Shown: piece after piece, positions 111 to 11,243 of the stretch
Position numbering within the stretch: the first letter of the stretch is position 1
How the letters are laid out: every line of letters starts with the position of its first letter
Assembly: GCA_019348495.1 (NCBI GenBank)
Contig: JAHWJI010000008.1
Location: forward strand, 1-43,979
Reading direction: 5' to 3'
DNA length: 43,979 nucleotides
DNA from: Actinomycetota bacterium
GTDB taxonomy: Bacteria; Actinomycetota; Acidimicrobiia; Acidimicrobiales; CADCSY01
The notes under the pieces: model-generated
The model's database searches: none
Told to the model about the DNA's origin: nothing
What the model saw: the letters and a program-made list of their open reading frames with translations, nothing else
Position numbers and translations under genes: made by a program

Positions 111-1433
111 CTAGGACGGGGCCGGGGGGCCCTTCCTGTTGATGTGGAGCCCGAGCTCGGCGAACGCCTCCAACGGACGGTGGTAGCCGCGCTCGAGGTG
201 GTGCACGTCGTGGAGCAGCGACGGGCCCTCCGCCGCGGCGGCGGCGATCACGTAGCCGAAGCCGCCGCGGATGTCGGGCACGGTGATCTCCGCGCCTCGC
301 AGGGCCGACGGGCCCCGTACCACGGCCGAGTGCATGGCGGTGCTCTCGTTGAACCGGCAGTCCCGCCCGCCGAGGCAGGCGTCGAACAGCTCGATCTCGG
401 CCCCCATCTCCTGCAGGGCGGTCACGTAAGGGAAGCGGTCCTCGTAGACGGTCTCGTGCACCACCGACATGCCCTCACACTGGGAGAACAGCACCACGAG
501 CGGTGGCTGCCAGTCGGTCATGAACCCCGGGTGGGCGTCGGTCTGGACCACGGCCGTTCGCAGCCGCCCGGCCGACACCGCCAGCCAGTCGTCAGTGATC
601 TCGAATCGGGCCCCCATGCGGTGCAGCGTGGAGATGGCGGTGACCAGCCGGCCCTGGCCGCACCCGTACACCCGGACCGTTCCGCCGGTGACCAGGCCGG
701 CGACCAGGTAGCTGAAGGCTTCGATGCGGTCGCCGTCGAGTCGGTGCTCGCCTCCCCGCAGACGGTCGACCCCCTCGATCACGAAGCGACGGTCAGGGCG
801 GAGCTCGATGCGGGCGCCCATGCGCTGGAGGAACAGAGCCAGCTCGATGACCTCCGGTTCGACCGCCGAGTTCTCCACCACCGTGCGTCCCTCGGCCAGC
901 ACTGCGCTGAGCAGCACCGTCTCGGTGGCGCCCACGCTGGGGAAGGGCAGGCGGATGCGGGCCCCGTGCAGCCTGAGCGCCTTGGCCTCCAGGCCATCGG
1001 GGGTCATCAGCACCTCGGCTCCCATGGCCTCCAGGGCCGAGACGTGGAAGTCGAGGGGCCGGCTCCCGATGCGATCACCCCCCACCAGGGGCACGAACAC
1101 CTCACCCATGCGATGCAGCAGCGGGCCGACCAGGAGGATGGGGATGCGGTTCAGTCCCCCGTAGGACAGCGGCACCCGACCCGTGTGGATGCTGTCGGGC
1201 TCCACCACGACGGTGTCGCCCTCGACGTCCACCAGGCACCCGAGCGAACGCAGCATCTCGGCGGTGATCTCGATGTCGCCGATCTGCGGGCAGTTCCTGA
1301 CGGTGCTGGGGGAGTCTCCCATCACGGCTGCCACCATGTGCTTGGTGACGGCGTTCTTGGAGCCGCGCACGGTCACATCACCCTGGAGGGGACCGACAGG
1401 CTCGATGCTCCAGGACGGGGCGGCGTTCGACAT
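111..1433 (-). CDS. murA: UDP-N-acetylglucosamine 1-carboxyvinyltransferase (Asp-type MurA)
   Basis: Cytoplasmic EPSP-synthase-fold enzyme that transfers enolpyruvate from PEP to UDP-GlcNAc, the first committed step of peptidoglycan synthesis. The 440-residue protein keeps the family signatures: GSKNA with Lys26 (E. coli Lys22), SVGATET near residue 166, TDWQ with Asp307 (Asp305), and DIRGG with Arg389 (Arg397). The loop that normally reads GGCTIGARP reads GGDRIGSRP here, so the Cys that fosfomycin alkylates is Asp120 (codon GAT, 1074-1076). Asp at this site is known from mycobacteria and chlamydiae and gives fosfomycin insensitivity; that this protein is resistant is inference. ATG at 1433 begins MSNAAPSW, directly before the conserved fold; the upstream in-frame extension is Arg/Pro-rich and looks non-coding. 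The protein is rather diverged, so a second MurA elsewhere in the genome is possible. Confidence 0.9.
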   Translation of the reverse strand: MSNAAPSWSIEPVGPLQGDVTVRGSKNAVTKHMVAAVMGDSPSTVRNCPQIGDIEITAEMLRSLGCLVDVEGDTVVVEPDSIHTGRVPLSYGGLNRIPILLVGPLLHRMGEVFVPLVGGDRIGSRPLDFHVSALEAMGAEVLMTPDGLEAKALRLHGARIRLPFPSVGATETVLLSAVLAEGRTVVENSAVEPEVIELALFLQRMGARIELRPDRRFVIEGVDRLRGGEHRLDGDRIEAFSYLVAGLVTGGTVRVYGCGQGRLVTAISTLHRMGARFEITDDWLAVSAGRLRTAVVQTDAHPGFMTDWQPPLVVLFSQCEGMSVVHETVYEDRFPYVTALQEMGAEIELFDACLGGRDCRFNESTAMHSAVVRGPSALRGAEITVPDIRGGFGYVIAAAAAEGPSLLHDVHHLERGYHRPLEAFAELGLHINRKGPPAPS

Positions 1434-1509: not shown

Positions 1510-2040
1510 TCAGTCGGTCTTCGCTGTGGCCGACCGACCAGGACGGCCGGCGGGGTGGTCGCGAGCCCGGGCCAGGGCGACGAGGGCACTGGCCGCCTCG
1601 TGTTGGAGCTCGGGCAACTCCTCGCGGGGGAACCAGCCCACCTCCACGATCTCGGGGGAACAGGGCGTGGCCGCCGCCCCGTCGCCGTCCACCCGGGCCT
1701 GGTAGACGACGTCGACCCGCCGAGGACCGGGGTCTATGACCACCGCCGGCTCACCCACCAGCTCGACGGCCAGGCCGACCTCCTCGTTCGCCTCTCGTAT
1801 GGCGGCATCGGCCACCTCCTCGCCGCGGCTGGCCAATCCCCCGGGGAAACCCCACCGCTGCCGATAGGAGTGACGGACCAGTAGCAGAGCACCGTCGGCT
1901 CGCTCCACCACACAGATCGCCCCCACCGTGAACGACGGGCTCATGCGATGGACGATGAAGAGCCGGGACGATCGGGGCAGGCGCCGGTACATGCGCAGCA
2001 AGAGGAGGTGGGCCTTCGCCCGCAACCGGCTAGCGCCCAC
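1510..2040 (-). CDS. NUDIX hydrolase
   Basis: A small cytosolic pyrophosphohydrolase of the NUDIX superfamily, acting on a nucleoside diphosphate linked to some group. The Nudix box GX5EX7REUXEEXGU is perfect, running from GLASRGE through REANEEVGL. It is preceded by the usual beta strands (FTVGAICVV, ALLLVRHSY) and RWGFPGG. The substrate cannot be told from sequence. I chose GTG at 2040, which overlaps the end of the inositol-monophosphatase-family gene by 11 bases and keeps a basic N-terminal helix (LLLLRMYRRLPRSSR) typical of this actinobacterial subgroup. ATG at 1992 gives a 160-residue product and is an acceptable alternative; neither start has a strong Shine-Dalgarno sequence. The overlap suggests translation coupled to the upstream gene. 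Confidence 0.85.
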   Translation of the reverse strand: MGASRLRAKAHLLLLRMYRRLPRSSRLFIVHRMSPSFTVGAICVVERADGALLLVRHSYRQRWGFPGGLASRGEEVADAAIREANEEVGLAVELVGEPAVVIDPGPRRVDVVYQARVDGDGAAATPCSPEIVEVGWFPREELPELQHEAASALVALARARDHPAGRPGRSATAKTD

Positions 2041-2788
2041 GCCCGGCCTGACCGCCGTTGGCCCCCAGGATCTGGTCGAGCAACGCCGGGGTGGCTGCCG
2101 CCGTCGGCGAGCGCCGGGCACCGTGATCGAGCACCACCAGCTCCCGGCCCCCGACGTCGGCCACCGCTGCCCCAGCCTCCTGGCACACGAGCAACCCGCC
2201 CAGGTAGTCCCAGGGACCGAGGGCGGAGGGCGACGTGCTGGCGTAGCCATCGAGTCGACCGGCGCCCACGTAGCAGAGATCGAGAGCAGCGGCCCCGAGC
2301 GACCGGTACTGCGACCAGCCCCAGTGGATGGGAGGGAGCCCGGACACAGCCACGATGGCCTCGCCCATCTCCCCGCAGCCCGACGCTCGGATGGTCCTAC
2401 CGTCGCAGCGGGCGCCGCAACCCCGCACCGCCTCGAAGCGCTCTCCCGAGGCCTGGTTGACGACGACCGCAGCCAAGGGGCCGTTGCCGTCGACGGCGCA
2501 CAGGCTGGTGGCGTACCAAGGCAGACCGCGGCTGGCGTTGGTGGAGCCGTCGACCGGGTCGAGCGCCACCACCACGTCCCGCTCGGGGTGATGCGTCCCC
2601 GACTCCTCGCTGAGCACGCCCAGGCCGTGGCCGACCAGCACGGCGACGGCGGCGGCGTCAGCCACCACGTCGATGGCGTACTGACCGCTGCGCTCGGTGG
2701 ACGGTCGCCAGTCGTCGACGTCGGCCAGGCTTCGGTGGACCGCCCCGGCCGCCTCGTCCAACACGTCGAGGAGCACACGGGCGGTCAC
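2030..2788 (-). CDS. inositol monophosphatase family protein
   Basis: Metal-dependent sugar-phosphate phosphatase of the IMPase/FBPase/CysQ fold, about 252 residues. All three metal-binding signatures are visible: SEESG (the GEE motif), LDPVDGSTN (the DPIDGT motif) and WDYLGGLLVCQEAGA (the WDxAAG motif). Known members hydrolyse inositol-1-phosphate, 3'-phosphoadenosine phosphate, histidinol phosphate or fructose-1,6-bisphosphate; the sequence does not decide between them. I set the start at GTG 2788 (VTARVLLDVLDEAAG) because the further extension to 2842 is Arg/Pro-rich and runs toward the divergent gene at 2887. Its 3' end overlaps the NUDIX gene, so the two form a likely operon. Confidence 0.85.
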   Translation of the reverse strand: MTARVLLDVLDEAAGAVHRSLADVDDWRPSTERSGQYAIDVVADAAAVAVLVGHGLGVLSEESGTHHPERDVVVALDPVDGSTNASRGLPWYATSLCAVDGNGPLAAVVVNQASGERFEAVRGCGARCDGRTIRASGCGEMGEAIVAVSGLPPIHWGWSQYRSLGAAALDLCYVGAGRLDGYASTSPSALGPWDYLGGLLVCQEAGAAVADVGGRELVVLDHGARRSPTAAATPALLDQILGANGGQAGRGR

Positions 2789-2886
2789 CCGGGCGACGGT
2801 ACCTCCGGGACGCGCCGGCCAGGGCCGACGCGGACTCCTCACCGTGACTGCGGCCCAGCCGGGACGAGGCCGATACCCTCGCCTCC

Positions 2887-5770: not shown

Positions 5771-7081
5771 TCAGCCCGGCGCCGACAGGCGGGCCGCCAG
5801 GCGCTCCAGCCCCGCCACCCGGCTGCCCTTGACCAACACGGCGTCCCCCTCGCCCAGGGGTCCCAGCGCGGCCAGGGCCTCGTCGGGCCCGCCCACCACC
5901 TCACCGCCGTAGGCCGGCTCGCCCACCGCCACCACCCGGATGCCGAGCTCAGCCGCCAGGGCCGCCACCGCCCGGTGCTCCCGGGCCGACACGTCGCCCA
6001 GCTCGGCCATGGTCCCGAGCACGGCGATCCGGCGACCGGCGTCCAGCTCGGCCAGCGCCCGTAGGGCGCCGGCCACAGACACCGGGTTGGCGTTGTAGGC
6101 GTCGTTGAGGACCAGCGCCCCCGATGGCGAGCGGACCAGGTCCATCCGCCAGGGCGAGAGCGAAGCCCGGGCCAACCCGTCGGCCACCGCGGCCGGAGCG
6201 ACGTCACACGCCAGGGCACCCGCCGCCGCAGCCAGGGCGTTGGACACCTGGTGGCGCCCCCGGACCGAGAGGCGAACCTCTGCGTCGCCCCACGGTGAGC
6301 GCATGGTGAACGACGGTCGGAGCTCGTCGTCGAGGACCACGCCCTCGGCCGTCACCTCCGCTGCCGGCGCCAGGCCGAAGCGCAGCACCGACGCACTGGT
6401 CACCGCGGCCATGGCCGCCACCAGGGGGTCGTCGGCGTTGAGCACGGCGGTGCCACTGGCCGGCAGCGACTCGACCAGCTCGGCCTTGGCCCGGGCCACC
6501 TGCTGGAGCGTGCCGAAGGTCTGGGTGTGGACCAGGCCGACGTGGGTGACCACCCCGACGGTGGGCTGGGCCAGGTCGCACAACAAGCGGAGGTCGCCCG
6601 GCGCCCGGGCACCCATCTCCACCACCACCGCCTCGACGCCGTCGGGGGCGGCGAGGAGGGTGAGGGGGACGCCCAGCTCGTTGTTGAACGAGCCGGTGCT
6701 GGCCGACGTCAGCCAGCGGGCGCCGAGGGCCGCGGCCAGCAGGTCCTTCACCGAGGTCTTGCCCACCGAGCCGGTCACCGCCACCACCCGATCGCCCAGG
6801 CGGGAGCGGGCGTGGCGGCCGAGGGCGGCCAGCGCGGCCAGGGTGTCGTCGACCACCACGGCGGTGCCGTACCGGGGGGGGCGGTGGCTGAGGTAGGCCG
6901 GCGCGCCAGCGGCCAGGGCGTCGGGGATGAAGTCGTGGCCGTCGCGCCCGGCCACGACGGGCACGAACAGCTGGCCGTCACCGAGCCGGCGGGAGTCGAT
7001 GGCCACCCCATCCACCTCGACGTCGGCGCCGATGAGCTGGCCGCCCGTCACCCGGGCCACCTCGGAGGTCCACCACCGCAT
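5771..7081 (-). CDS. murF: UDP-N-acetylmuramoyl-tripeptide--D-alanyl-D-alanine ligase
   Basis: Cytoplasmic ATP-dependent Mur ligase that adds D-Ala-D-Ala to the UDP-MurNAc-tripeptide, the last soluble step of peptidoglycan precursor synthesis. The 436-residue protein shows the N-terminal UDP-binding region (GVAIDSRRLGDGQLFVPV), the P-loop VTGSVGKTSVKDL, the MurF signature SFNNELGVPLTLL, VVEMGARAPGDL, NADDP and LNDAYNANPVSVAGAL. Length and motif order are normal. It is not embedded in a dcw cluster here (no murE or mraY next to it). Its ATG (7081-7079) overlaps the ATG of ddl on the opposite strand, so its promoter must lie inside the ddl coding region. Confidence 0.95.
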   Translation of the reverse strand: MRWWTSEVARVTGGQLIGADVEVDGVAIDSRRLGDGQLFVPVVAGRDGHDFIPDALAAGAPAYLSHRPPRYGTAVVVDDTLAALAALGRHARSRLGDRVVAVTGSVGKTSVKDLLAAALGARWLTSASTGSFNNELGVPLTLLAAPDGVEAVVVEMGARAPGDLRLLCDLAQPTVGVVTHVGLVHTQTFGTLQQVARAKAELVESLPASGTAVLNADDPLVAAMAAVTSASVLRFGLAPAAEVTAEGVVLDDELRPSFTMRSPWGDAEVRLSVRGRHQVSNALAAAAGALACDVAPAAVADGLARASLSPWRMDLVRSPSGALVLNDAYNANPVSVAGALRALAELDAGRRIAVLGTMAELGDVSAREHRAVAALAAELGIRVVAVGEPAYGGEVVGGPDEALAALGPLGEGDAVLVKGSRVAGLERLAARLSAPG

Positions 7082-8207
7082 GGCCCGCTACCGTGCCACA
7101 CCCGTGGTCGACGTCACCTCCTCGCCCGCCCTGCCCGGGCGCGTGCGGCTGGTGGTGCTCTTCGGGGGCCGTTCGGCCGAGCACGAGGTGTCGTGTGTCT
7201 CGGCCGCCTCGGTGCTGGCCGCCCTCGACCGGGACCGCTACGACGTGTGGCCCATCGCCATCACCGGCGACGGTCACTGGGTGCGCGCCGAGGAGGCCCG
7301 GGCCGCGCTGATGGCCGGAGCCGGCGCCCTCCCGCCGGCACTGGCGACGGTGGGACCCCGGGTCGATCCGCTGCCCGAGCTGGTCGCCTCGACCGGTGAC
7401 GGCCCCACCGTGGTCTTTCCCCTGCTCCACGGTCCCCAGGGGGAGGACGGCACCGTCCAGGGGCTCCTGGAGCTGGCCGGGCTGGCCTACGTGGGCGCCG
7501 GCGTGTTGGGATCGGCGCTTTGCATGGACAAGGCCAAGGCCAAGGACGTGCTCTCCGCCGCCGGCCTCCCCCAGGCCCGTCACCTGGCCCGGCGCGGCCA
7601 CGAGGTCGACGACCACCTGCCGGCGCGGGTCGGTGACGAGCTGGGTTGGCCGGTGTTCGTCAAGCCCGCCAACCTGGGCTCGTCGGTGGGGATCTCCCGT
7701 GTGGGCGGCCCCGACGACCTGGGCGCCGCCGTCGAGGTGGCCCTGGCCTACGACGAGTGGGTGGTCATCGAGGAGGCGGTCACCGGCCGGGAGATCGAGT
7801 GCGGGGTGCTGGGCAACGCTGAGCTGGCGGTGTCGGTCCCCGGCGAGATCATCCCCGGCGCCGAGTTCTACGACTACGACGACAAGTACTCGGGCGCCGG
7901 GGCCGAGTTGGTGGTCCCCGCCGTGCTCCCCGACGCCGTGGCCGACGACGTCGGGCGCCTGGCCGTGGCCGCCGCCACCGCACTGCGGGCCGAGGGCATG
8001 GCCCGGGTCGACTTCTTCTACGAAGCACAGGGTCGGGGGTTGCTGGTCAACGAGGTGAACACCATCCCCGGCTTCACGCCCCAGTCGATGTATCCCCGCC
8101 TGTGGGTGGCCTCGGGCGTGCCCTACCCCGAGCTCGTCGACCGCCTCGTGGCCCTGGCCCTGGAGCGTCACGACCGCCGGGCCGGCCGCGTCGGGCGTCC
8201 CCGCTGA
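7080..8207 (+). CDS. ddl: D-alanine--D-alanine ligase
   Basis: ATP-grasp enzyme joining two D-Ala, the substrate for the divergently encoded MurF. The motifs are clear: LFGGRSAEHEVSC at the N-terminus, PLLHGPQGEDGTVQGLLELAGLAYVGAGVLGSALCMDK, FVKPANLGSSVGISRV (ATP binding), EIECGVLGN, FYDYDDKYSG and the C-terminal metal site VNEVNTIPGFTPQSMYP. With ATG 7080 the product is 375 residues. GTG at 7143 would remove 21 N-terminal residues and is also plausible, because the conserved part starts at VRLVVLFGG. It ends 9 bases before the stop of the convergent TetR gene. Confidence 0.95.
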   Translation: MARYRATPVVDVTSSPALPGRVRLVVLFGGRSAEHEVSCVSAASVLAALDRDRYDVWPIAITGDGHWVRAEEARAALMAGAGALPPALATVGPRVDPLPELVASTGDGPTVVFPLLHGPQGEDGTVQGLLELAGLAYVGAGVLGSALCMDKAKAKDVLSAAGLPQARHLARRGHEVDDHLPARVGDELGWPVFVKPANLGSSVGISRVGGPDDLGAAVEVALAYDEWVVIEEAVTGREIECGVLGNAELAVSVPGEIIPGAEFYDYDDKYSGAGAELVVPAVLPDAVADDVGRLAVAAATALRAEGMARVDFFYEAQGRGLLVNEVNTIPGFTPQSMYPRLWVASGVPYPELVDRLVALALERHDRRAGRVGRPR

Positions 8208-8216
8208 GGCGTTCGA

Positions 8217-8816
8217 TCAGGGCTCGGCCACCAGGGCGCAGCGCAGGAAGCCGAGCAGCTCGGTGCGGCGCCGGACCAGGGTCCGGGCGGTGGGATCCAC
8301 CCCCACCGCCCGTAGCACCTCGACCTCGGTGGCCGCGCCGATGACCGTGGAGTAGACCGACAGCAGCAGCAGCCGGGGGTCGTGACGGCGCATGCGTCCG
8401 GCCGCCATCTCCTCCTCCAGGAAGGCCCCGGCCCGCACCACCAGGGGGTCGAGGACCTCCACCAGCCGGGTGGCGGTGGGCGGGCCCAGCCGGCTGACCT
8501 CTCTGAGCAGGCCCAGCAGCTCGGGGCGGCGAGCGGCCAGGCGGAACACCGCCCGCACCAACGCCTCCACCCGGTCGAACCCCGGGCCGGCCCGGGCGAG
8601 GGCCACCTCGAGGGCTTCGCCCAACTCTGCCGCCGAGTGGTCGACCACCGCCATCAAGAGCCCCTCCTTGGTCCCGAAGTGATGCAGGATCGTCTGTTTG
8701 CGCAGGCCCAGGCCACCCGCCAGGCTGTCGAGCGATGTGGCGCCGTAGCCGCGGGCGGAAAAGCTCATCAGGGCGCCGTCGAGGATCCGGGCCCGGGTGG
8801 CGGCTGCGTCCTTCAC
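8217..8816 (-). CDS. TetR family transcriptional regulator
   Basis: A 199-residue TetR-type repressor. The N-terminal helix-turn-helix is well formed (ATRARILDGALMSFSARGYGATSLDSLAGGLGLRKQTILHHFGTKEGLLMAVV), with the usual LHHFGTKEGLL. The remaining ~140 residues are the helical ligand-binding and dimer domain, with no recognisable ligand signature. It diverges from the acyl-CoA reductase operon with only 24 bases between the two starts, and those bases contain a perfect palindrome. The natural inference is that it represses both itself and the operon and responds to an acyl-CoA or related lipid intermediate. The ligand is not shown by sequence. Confidence 0.92.
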   Translation of the reverse strand: MKDAAATRARILDGALMSFSARGYGATSLDSLAGGLGLRKQTILHHFGTKEGLLMAVVDHSAAELGEALEVALARAGPGFDRVEALVRAVFRLAARRPELLGLLREVSRLGPPTATRLVEVLDPLVVRAGAFLEEEMAAGRMRRHDPRLLLLSVYSTVIGAATEVEVLRAVGVDPTARTLVRRRTELLGFLRCALVAEP

Positions 8817-8817
8817 T

Positions 8818-8829
8818 TACCATATGGTA
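8818..8829. promoter_or_regulatory. putative TetR operator palindrome
   Basis: TACCATATGGTA is a perfect 12-bp palindrome. It lies one base upstream of the TetR start codon and 11 bases upstream of the GTG of the acyl-CoA reductase gene. It is AT-richer than anything nearby. Size and placement fit a TetR-dimer half-site pair that would block initiation of both divergent genes. That it is bound by the adjacent regulator is inference. Confidence 0.6.
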
Positions 8830-8840
8830 GACAACTCCCC

Positions 8841-11243
8841 GTGATCGCCGACGCCCTGCACGGACGCCGCCTCCTGGTCACCGGGGCCACCGGGTTCCTG
8901 GGTACCGCCCTGGTCGAGCGTCTCCTGCGCTCGGTGCCCGGATGCGAGCTGGTCCTGTTGGTGCGGGCCGGCCGGCGGTCGACACCGCAACGGCGGGTGC
9001 AGCGCGAGGTGCTGCGCAACGACGCCTTCGACCGCTTGCGCGCCGATCTGGGCGATCGCTTCGACGAGGAGGCGGCCCGGCGGATCACCGTCATCGCCGG
9101 CGACGTGGGCATGGACGGGCTGGGCCTCGACGACGCCGGCCGGGCCGCCCTCGCCTCCTGCGACGTCGCCATCCACGCCGCCGCCGCCGTGGCCTTCGAC
9201 TCCCCCCTCGATCGGGCCGTGGAGGTCAACCTGCTCGGTCCCACCCGGGTGGCCGAGGCGCTGCGCTCGGCGGGATCGACGGCCCACCTGGTCTCGGTCT
9301 CGACCTGTTACGTGGCCGGCAACCGCCGGGGCCGCGCCGGCGAGGTGGCGGTGTTCGACACGCCCTTCGGCCCCAAGCCCAGTTGGCGCGACGAGGTCGC
9401 CGCTGCCCGCCGGGCGCGGGCCGACACCGAGGCCGAGAGCCGCACCCCGCCCCTGCTGGCGCGCTTCGCCAAGGAGGCCCGGGCCGAGCTGGGGGCGGCG
9501 GGCATCCCGCTGCTCGCCAGCAGAGCCGAGCGGTTTCGGGAGACCTGGGTGGCCCACACCATGGTGGAAGCGGGGCGGGCCCGGGCCCGGGCGCTGGGCT
9601 GGCCCGACGCCTACGCCTACACCAAGGCCCTGGGCGAGCAGGCTCTGTGTGAGACCAGGGGCGACCTCCCCGTCACCCTGGTGCGCCCCTCGATCATCGA
9701 GTCGGCCCTGGCCGAGCCCCGTCCGGGGTGGATCCGGGGCTTTCGCATGGCCGAGCCGGTCATCATCACCTACGCCCGGGGCCTGCTCAAGGAGTTCCCG
9801 GGTATCCCCGAGGGCGTGGTCGACGTCATCCCCGTCGACCTCGTCGTGGCCGCGGTGATCGACGCCGCCGCCCGGGGGCCCAAGCCCACGCCGGCGCCGG
9901 CCATCGTCCAGGTGGCGTCGGGTTCGGCCAACCCGCTGCGCTACCGCCACCTGGTCGACATGGTGCACGACTGGTTCAGCCAGCACCCCCTCTACGACGC
10001 CAAGGGCCAGCCCATCGTGGTCCCCCGCTGGTCCTTCCCGGGCCGGGGCCGGGTCCAACACCAGCTCCAGCGGGCGGTCAGGGCCATAGATCTGGCCGAG
10101 AAGGCGCTGGGGGCGCTGCCGCTGCGTGGCAGTCAGGCCCGCTGGGCCGCCGATCTCGAGGAGCGCCGGGCCGAGGCCTCCCGGGCGCTGGACTACGTGG
10201 AGCTCTACGGTGCCTACGCCGAGACCGAGGCCGTCTTCGCCGTCGACGAGCTCCTGGCCCGCTGGTCGACCCTCGACGCCACCGACCAGGCGAGCTTCGG
10301 CTATGACCCCGGGGTCGTCGACTGGGACCACTACGTCACCCAGGTCCACCTGCCCTCGGTGGTGGAGCACGCCCGGGTGCGGGTCACGCCCGGTTCCCGC
10401 ACCGGCCCCAGCCGGTCCCAACGCCTGCGCGACCGGGTACTCGCACCCGAGCGCCACCTGGCCGCCTTCGACCTGGAGAACACCCTCGTCGCCTCCAACG
10501 TGGTCGACTCCTACTCCTGGCTGGCCACCCGCCGGCTGCCGCCCGACGAGCGGCTGCGCTTCGCCCTGCGCACCCTGGCCGAGGCCCCGGCGTTGCTGGC
10601 GCTCGACCGCCAGGACCGGGGCGACTTCCTGCGTCACTTCTACCGCCGGTTCGAGGGGGCCCCGGTAGCCCAGCTGGAAGAGGACGCCACCCAGCTGCTC
10701 AGCCACCTGTTGTTGACCAAGTCGTTCCCGGCCGGCATCCGCCGGGTGCGCCAGCACCGTCGCCTGGGTCACCGCACGGTGCTCATCACCGGCGCCCTCG
10801 ACGTGGTGGTCGAGCGCAACCTGGCCCCACTGTTCGACGACATCGTGTGCGCCCGCATGAGCCCTCAGGCGAGCCGGGGCGACCGGGGGGGGCCCAGGTG
10901 GAACGGGGAGCTGACCGGCGCCCCGCCCACGGGGGAGGCACGGGCCCAGGCCATGGCCGACTACGCCGAGGCCGAGGGCCTGCGCCTGGAGGAGGCCGTG
11001 GCCTACGCCGATTCGGCCAGCGACCTGCCCATGCTCGAGGCGGTGGGCTTCCCGGTGGCGGTCAACCCGGAGATCCGACTGGCCGCCGTCGCCCGCAAGC
11101 GGGGCTGGCTGGTCGAGCAGTGGTCGAAGTCGCCGGGCGGGCCCCGGCCCTTGCTGCCCATCGGCCCGGTCACGCAACGCACGTCCTTCGCCCGTCGCCC
11201 GGCCGCCACGGCCGCCGTGGCCGAGCGGGGGAGGGATCGGTGA
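8841..11243 (+). CDS. fatty acyl-CoA reductase fused to HAD-IB phosphatase-like domain
   Basis: An 800-residue fusion. Residues ~1-370 are an extended SDR of the NAD_binding_4/fatty acyl-CoA reductase type: VTGATGFLGTALVERLL (NADPH binding), SVSTCYVAG, catalytic YAYTK (Tyr and Lys four apart), LVRPSIIESA and VDVIPVDLVVAAVI. A linker-like helical region follows to ~540. Residues ~540-760 are a HAD-IB domain: FDLENT (motif I), LITGALD (motif II), ADSASDLPML (motif IV). Motif I normally reads DxDxT; here the second Asp is Glu546, and the expected motif III Lys is replaced by Arg in TGEAR, so phosphatase activity is doubtful. The SDR part should reduce an acyl-CoA to an alcohol or aldehyde. GTG 8841 directly follows the palindrome; no better start exists. 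First gene of a coupled operon, ending in a GTGA overlap. Confidence 0.85.
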   Translation: MIADALHGRRLLVTGATGFLGTALVERLLRSVPGCELVLLVRAGRRSTPQRRVQREVLRNDAFDRLRADLGDRFDEEAARRITVIAGDVGMDGLGLDDAGRAALASCDVAIHAAAAVAFDSPLDRAVEVNLLGPTRVAEALRSAGSTAHLVSVSTCYVAGNRRGRAGEVAVFDTPFGPKPSWRDEVAAARRARADTEAESRTPPLLARFAKEARAELGAAGIPLLASRAERFRETWVAHTMVEAGRARARALGWPDAYAYTKALGEQALCETRGDLPVTLVRPSIIESALAEPRPGWIRGFRMAEPVIITYARGLLKEFPGIPEGVVDVIPVDLVVAAVIDAAARGPKPTPAPAIVQVASGSANPLRYRHLVDMVHDWFSQHPLYDAKGQPIVVPRWSFPGRGRVQHQLQRAVRAIDLAEKALGALPLRGSQARWAADLEERRAEASRALDYVELYGAYAETEAVFAVDELLARWSTLDATDQASFGYDPGVVDWDHYVTQVHLPSVVEHARVRVTPGSRTGPSRSQRLRDRVLAPERHLAAFDLENTLVASNVVDSYSWLATRRLPPDERLRFALRTLAEAPALLALDRQDRGDFLRHFYRRFEGAPVAQLEEDATQLLSHLLLTKSFPAGIRRVRQHRRLGHRTVLITGALDVVVERNLAPLFDDIVCARMSPQASRGDRGGPRWNGELTGAPPTGEARAQAMADYAEAEGLRLEEAVAYADSASDLPMLEAVGFPVAVNPEIRLAAVARKRGWLVEQWSKSPGGPRPLLPIGPVTQRTSFARRPAATAAVAERGRDR

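Follow-up and report, generated by a model that had tools for sequence, protein, structure and literature searches.

Replacement of the fosfomycin-target cysteine of MurA by aspartate is a well-known natural variation of the enzyme; in the genome considered here it is the form usual among the relatives and not a newly acquired resistance. The MurA proteins of M. tuberculosis, C. trachomatis and B. burgdorferi have aspartate at this site by nature, and changing it to cysteine confers fosfomycin sensitivity on those of M. tuberculosis and B. burgdorferi; E. coli MurA given the aspartate (C115D) is described as fully active and fosfomycin-insensitive (PMC4790336). The C119D form of E. faecium MurA keeps its kcat, with a doubled Km for UDP-GlcNAc, and is not inhibited by fosfomycin below 100 μM; the same paper states that aspartate greatly altered catalysis by E. 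coli MurA (PMC5652432), which is at odds with the full activity given in PMC4790336. A third source explains the resistance of M. tuberculosis MurA in the same way (PMC6378297). A literature search by titles and the opening lines of abstracts, covering few subscription journals, found no publications on MurA of the clade to which the enzyme considered here belongs.

This enzyme is encoded in what we call the window, a contiguous stretch of 43,979 nucleotides that was analysed as a whole and that comes from an Actinomycetota bacterium of the order Acidimicrobiales. The features to which we refer are as follows.

Positions 1433 to 111, minus strand: murA, 440 amino acids, a complete gene with its ATG start at 1433 and its stop at 113-111.
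Positions 1074-1076, minus strand (ATC on the plus strand): the GAT codon of Asp120, equivalent of E. coli Cys115.
Positions 348 to 392, minus strand: an extra loop, residues 348-362, with Cys353 and Cys359, missing from E. cloacae MurA (a gap in the alignment).
Positions 1510 to 1992, minus strand: a NUDIX hydrolase gene (PF00293), upstream of murA.
Positions 2030 to 2842, minus strand: an inositol monophosphatase family gene (PF00459), upstream of the NUDIX gene.
Positions 5771 to 7081, minus strand: murF, of the same pathway (TIGR01143, 357.5 bits against a cut-off of 288.6).
Positions 6927 to 8207, plus strand: the ORF of ddl, D-alanine--D-alanine ligase (TIGR01205, 326.9 bits against a cut-off of 245.65).

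The product of the first of these passes the NCBIfam murA equivalog model (TIGR01072) with 426 bits against a cut-off of 392.7, and stays far under that of the aroA equivalog, at 96.8 bits against 287.25. A structure model built from 33 aligned sequences (mean pLDDT 91.3, pTM 0.91) is predicted to have the MurA fold, its TM-score against MurA structure 1uae being 0.91 by query and 0.96 by target. Among the 50 Foldseek matches listed, ranks 1-43 are MurA entries by title, at 29-35% identity to the window MurA (entry 1naw is titled only 'enolpyruvyl transferase'), with C. difficile MurA C116D (6q0a) at rank 1 and E. cloacae MurA C115D (3v4t) at rank 19.

The ten residues which we take to be catalytic in E. 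coli MurA (K22, N23, R91, R120, R232, D305, R331, D369, R371 and R397) map through the alignment to K26, N27, R96, R125, R236, D307, R333, D387, R389 and R415, and all ten are retained, bearing out the statement, made before any comparison, that the rest of the active site is intact. In the set of 118 rows (88 of them distinct) with at least 55% identity, each is kept in 115 to 118, the exceptions being gaps, X, and Ala at the R397 position in two rows. Four divergent enolpyruvyl transferases (L126, L127, L279 and L280) have Cys at the fosfomycin site and lack two or three of the MurA active-site residues; they are NikO-like by resemblance only.

Translation of the minus strand from the ATG at 1433 makes the GAT at 1074-1076 codon 120 of 440 and places its Asp in the context VGGDRIGSRPLDFH. 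The sequence-only reading had thus given both the residue and its number correctly, though it left the minus strand unmentioned; its further claim, that Asp stands where the fosfomycin-target Cys is usually found, agrees with the alignment, in which Asp120 falls on the engineered Asp of E. cloacae MurA C115D (PDB 3v4t).

To describe how widespread this Asp is, we counted sequences as distinct if they differed over a 280-residue stretch, in a sample made up of order and family rows, named genomes and a phylum sample; from the last, the returned loci and a chosen set were read, and a fragment (L014) and two copies of the window gene (L002 and L003) were left out before counting. From 55% identity upwards, every one of the 88 distinct sequences, the window's included, has Asp; Cys is found in 48 and Asp in 8 of the 56 distinct sequences at 43-55%, and Asp in 87 and Cys in 26 of the 113 at 33-43%, counts that are not population frequencies because similarity rank partly decided which rows were fetched. 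From the 148 genomes of the order set the site was read in 108; the main matches of 37 were left unfetched, two genomes had no match and one (G003) gave only a fragment, from which the Asp/Cys site is absent. The MurA rows read from the order have Asp in 113 of 115 cases. Taken by identity, order and family rows have it in 39 of 39 at 55% or more (window included) and in 74 of 74 at 34-43%, and the two rows between these bands (L050 and L051) both have Cys. A further six rows from the order and family, with weaker matches, belong to AroA-like or NikO-like proteins, and two of these have Cys.

The Asp120 codon is GAT in the window gene and GAC in all five relatives compared, and because all 88 distinct sequences have Asp and the codons differ synonymously, the residue is no chance event. 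Five comparisons of murA with near relatives gave dN/dS values of 0.08-0.20; the Asp120 site is, to judge by these comparisons, under purifying selection. On the same evidence the Asp is an old, selectively maintained residue, usual in the lineage and not special to the source organism.

An unrooted tree of 96 rows splits MurA into two deep groups. One, mostly without the insert, contains mycobacterial-like rows, the order's majority type with Asp, and several Cys lineages; the other, with the insert, contains Streptomyces-like, Frankia and Isoptericola enzymes with Cys, the window's clade with Asp (29 of 29 rows, support 100), and rows from Chloroflexota and Ignavibacteriota that have one or the other residue. 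The labels mycobacterial-like (L294 and L295) and Streptomyces-like are our own presumptive ones. One row, L052, belongs by identity with the 74 rows at 34-43%, yet is placed in the insert group on a long branch. The Cys pair of the loop, possibly a disulfide or a metal site, is present in 79 of the 88 distinct sequences that reach 55% identity, in 55 of 56 at 43-55%, and in 2 of 113 at 33-43%.

Asp and Cys have been exchanged at least six times on this tree, five of the exchanges being forced by well-supported branches, and at least three times on a smaller tree of 53 rows; since the trees are unrooted, an Asp gained and a Cys gained look alike on them. When 14 rows of the window's clade were constrained to join 14 rows with Asp from the other deep group, a constraint group picked after the 96-row tree had been seen, the result was worse by 157.8 log units (p-AU 2.3e-26). 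Grouping of the window MurA with the mycobacterial-like Asp enzymes, from which Cys lineages separate it, is rejected on this analysis, and Asp is, as far as the tree goes, a residue of at least two separate MurA groups. On the same tree the MurA of Ornithinimicrobium sp. F0845 (L168) is sister to that of an order genome (G119), which suggests a horizontal transfer.

Some genomes hold both kinds of enzyme. In ten of ten genomes of Streptosporangiaceae type (G427-G436: Nonomuraea, Herbidospora, two Streptosporangium, Acrocarpospora, Thermocatellispora, Microbispora, Microtetraspora, Sphaerisporangium and Planobispora) an Asp-MurA of the window's clade is accompanied by a second full-length homologue with Cys (GGCNLG), and the three Cys copies examined keep the other checked active-site positions. 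The assignment to Streptosporangiaceae follows tree labels for five of the ten and is presumed for the others; Planomonospora (L154) is outside the count. Actinospica (L265) and Actinocrinis (L264) likewise pair the Asp-MurA with a Streptomyces-like Cys copy, and this copy of Actinocrinis passes the murA model. In the order to which the window belongs, a single family code may include genera with one MurA type and genera with the other (f2, f25 and f27, for example).

Three other cases were seen. One order genome (G075; C44 = L045, C45 = L107) has both types, both with Asp, through either true coexistence or contamination. Frankia sp. QA3 (G452; L194 and L266) mirrors the Streptosporangiaceae case, with a long-insert Cys MurA and a canonical-group Asp MurA. 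Streptosporangium subroseum and Microtetraspora sp. have a further MurA-like copy (L277 and L278), with Asp in PGGDAFC and on a very long branch.

As a tentative proposal, about which we are more doubtful than confident, a distinct Asp branch of long-insert MurA may run through Acidimicrobiales and some Actinomycetes, serving as the sole MurA in many Acidimicrobiales and perhaps as an inhibitor-proof backup beside the Cys-MurA in Streptosporangiaceae and Actinospicaceae.

The window genome, 2.2 Mb in 161 contigs and 98.12% complete, has two matches to the EPSP_synthase family: this murA, and a gene that passes the aroA model and sits between a prephenate dehydrogenase-like ORF and a cmk-like ORF (neighbours read by eye). 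The look for a second MurA that the sequence-only reading had recommended has therefore been taken, and within this family search and this assembly it found none; the other match is AroA. With the assembly in 161 contigs, a second MurA could lie in a gap. A single full-length relative and no second MurA were found in 11 of 12 family genomes, the window's own included, and in the remaining genome there is a fragment, lying at the end of a contig. Seven second matches in family genomes having a full MurA score at most 47.8 bits; five of them (L015-L019) are AroA-like by motif as read by eye, the motif table covering these five and leaving L020 and L021 outside. In one family genome (G007) the murA match contains a single TAG, which we take to be the ordinary gene end because the match reaches query residue 439 and other matches that extend to the C-terminus repeatedly show single stops as well.

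All 12 family genomes share the gene order inositol monophosphatase, NUDIX, murA. Besides murF and ddl in the window, murB and mraY are found elsewhere in the genome, each above its cut-off. The ORFs of murF and ddl overlap in head-to-head orientation; the true ddl start probably lies about 70 codons further in, because the TIGR01205 match begins only at residue 74. Beyond ddl, the ORF at 8382-11243 (plus strand) encodes two domains in one frame, the first fatty acyl reductase-like (NAD_binding_4) and the other a HAD phosphatase. For an assembly that is not closed, the evidence points to the window murA as the housekeeping MurA rather than a spare copy.

The Asp could be read as a resistance mutation that the source organism acquired under selection by fosfomycin, in the way that the same Cys to Asp change is associated with high-level fosfomycin resistance in clinical E. 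faecium (PMC5652432). The order and family rows speak against this, being uniform in Asp both at 55% identity or more (39 rows) and at 34-43% (74 rows), as does the synonymous difference from relatives at the codon itself. The genome also has no GlpT/UhpT-type importer above cut-off, the matches to TIGR00881 being weak (43.4 bits at best), though this model reaches its cut-off in just 2 of 14 control genomes. Because Asp is fixed in nearly all the order rows read, we reject the acquired mutation, which we consider extremely improbable. Scarcely more credible is that the gene encodes a non-essential paralogue or another enolpyruvyl transferase, AroA-like or NikO-like, in which case the Asp would say nothing of the cell's response to fosfomycin. 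Its PF00275 score is indeed below that of the genome's AroA (221.6 against 378.5 bits), and genomes of Streptosporangiaceae type have, beside their member of this clade, at least one other MurA homologue; but the window protein passes the murA equivalog model while falling far short of the aroA cut-off, no other MurA was found in the genome and the MurA is single in 11 of 12 family genomes, and all ten active-site positions match, two of which the NikO-like L126, L279 and L280 lack.

A reading of another kind, which concerns the origin of the Asp and not the behaviour of the enzyme and is compatible with a housekeeping, insensitive MurA, is that the clade has kept the residue for a reason other than fosfomycin, such as avoiding the covalent Cys-PEP state of Cys-type MurA structures. 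The titles of PDB entries 3su9, 3swd, 3swe and 8d84 describe Cys-type MurA with PEP covalently on the Cys together with UDP-MurNAc, and the occurrence of Asp in at least two separate MurA groups is also in its favour. The window genome has no match to the PEP mutase model (TIGR02320), which argues weakly against self-protection from a phosphonate of the organism's own; but this negative is a weak one, the cut-off being reached in 0 of 14 controls. None of the 22 genomes searched has a match to this model above cut-off, while 17 have a weaker one, including a genome of the same genus (G004, 70.4 bits), and the best, in Actinocrinis (G441), scores 296.1 against 319.55. We regard such a cause as possible, if on balance unlikely.

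The explanation that we hold with high confidence is that the window gene encodes the housekeeping MurA, that Asp120 replaces Cys115 in function and makes the enzyme fosfomycin-insensitive, and that the Asp is a long-standing feature of the clade, not a recent resistance mutation. The enzyme would join phosphoenolpyruvate to UDP-GlcNAc, the first committed step of peptidoglycan synthesis, with Asp120 taking over the part played by Cys115 in E. coli MurA, in proton transfer and product release. Asp120 would offer fosfomycin no thiol to alkylate, and the window MurA should therefore be insensitive to the drug; by analogy with the characterized enzymes it should also be active. For this particular protein we infer catalytic activity, drug insensitivity and essentiality. 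The original interpretation, that Asp here gives insensitivity as in mycobacteria and others, is well supported because MurA enzymes with Asp here are known to work and to be fosfomycin-insensitive, and the published precedents agree with it (PMC4790336, PMC5652432, PMC6378297). The observation is true and its interpretation sound; the feature is ordinary for the lineage.

For the source genome the consequence is a MurA predicted to be intrinsically fosfomycin-insensitive, as reported for mycobacteria, which matters little for that genome alone. Asp is the rule at this site in the order rows read, and some actinomycete families appear to carry Asp-type and Cys-type MurA together. Because Asp is common, occurs in at least two MurA groups and sometimes stands beside a Cys copy, the presence of murA in actinobacteria is no predictor of fosfomycin sensitivity; prediction for an actinobacterial genome requires reading the residue at the Cys115 site. 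Asp-type MurA is known in kind, and what comparison adds, of modest value, is that the long-insert group includes an Asp clade and that this clade elsewhere occurs beside Cys copies.

Among known systems, M. tuberculosis MurA resembles the window enzyme in being actinobacterial, in having Asp for the fosfomycin-target Cys and in being reported as fosfomycin-insensitive. The mycobacterial-like rows (L294 and L295, motif GGDAIGSRPLDMH), on which this comparison rests in place of M. tuberculosis MurA itself, differ from it in their 39-40% identity and in belonging to the other deep group, mostly without the insert. The long-insert MurA of Streptomyces-like (motif LGGCDIGGRPIDFHF), Frankia and Isoptericola type is at 45-49% identity, in the same deep group and with the insert and its Cys pair in common (the 55 of 56 distinct sequences in the 43-55% band), but has Cys at the fosfomycin site, so that sensitivity is expected. 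E. cloacae C115D (3v4t) and C. difficile C116D (6q0a) have the same residue at the same site as Asp120, but are laboratory mutants of Cys enzymes, and E. cloacae MurA is without the insert. The Asp-MurA proteins of Nonomuraea, Streptosporangium and Microbispora are of the window's own clade, with Asp and 64-66% identity; their genomes also have a Cys MurA homologue, whereas none was found in that of the window.
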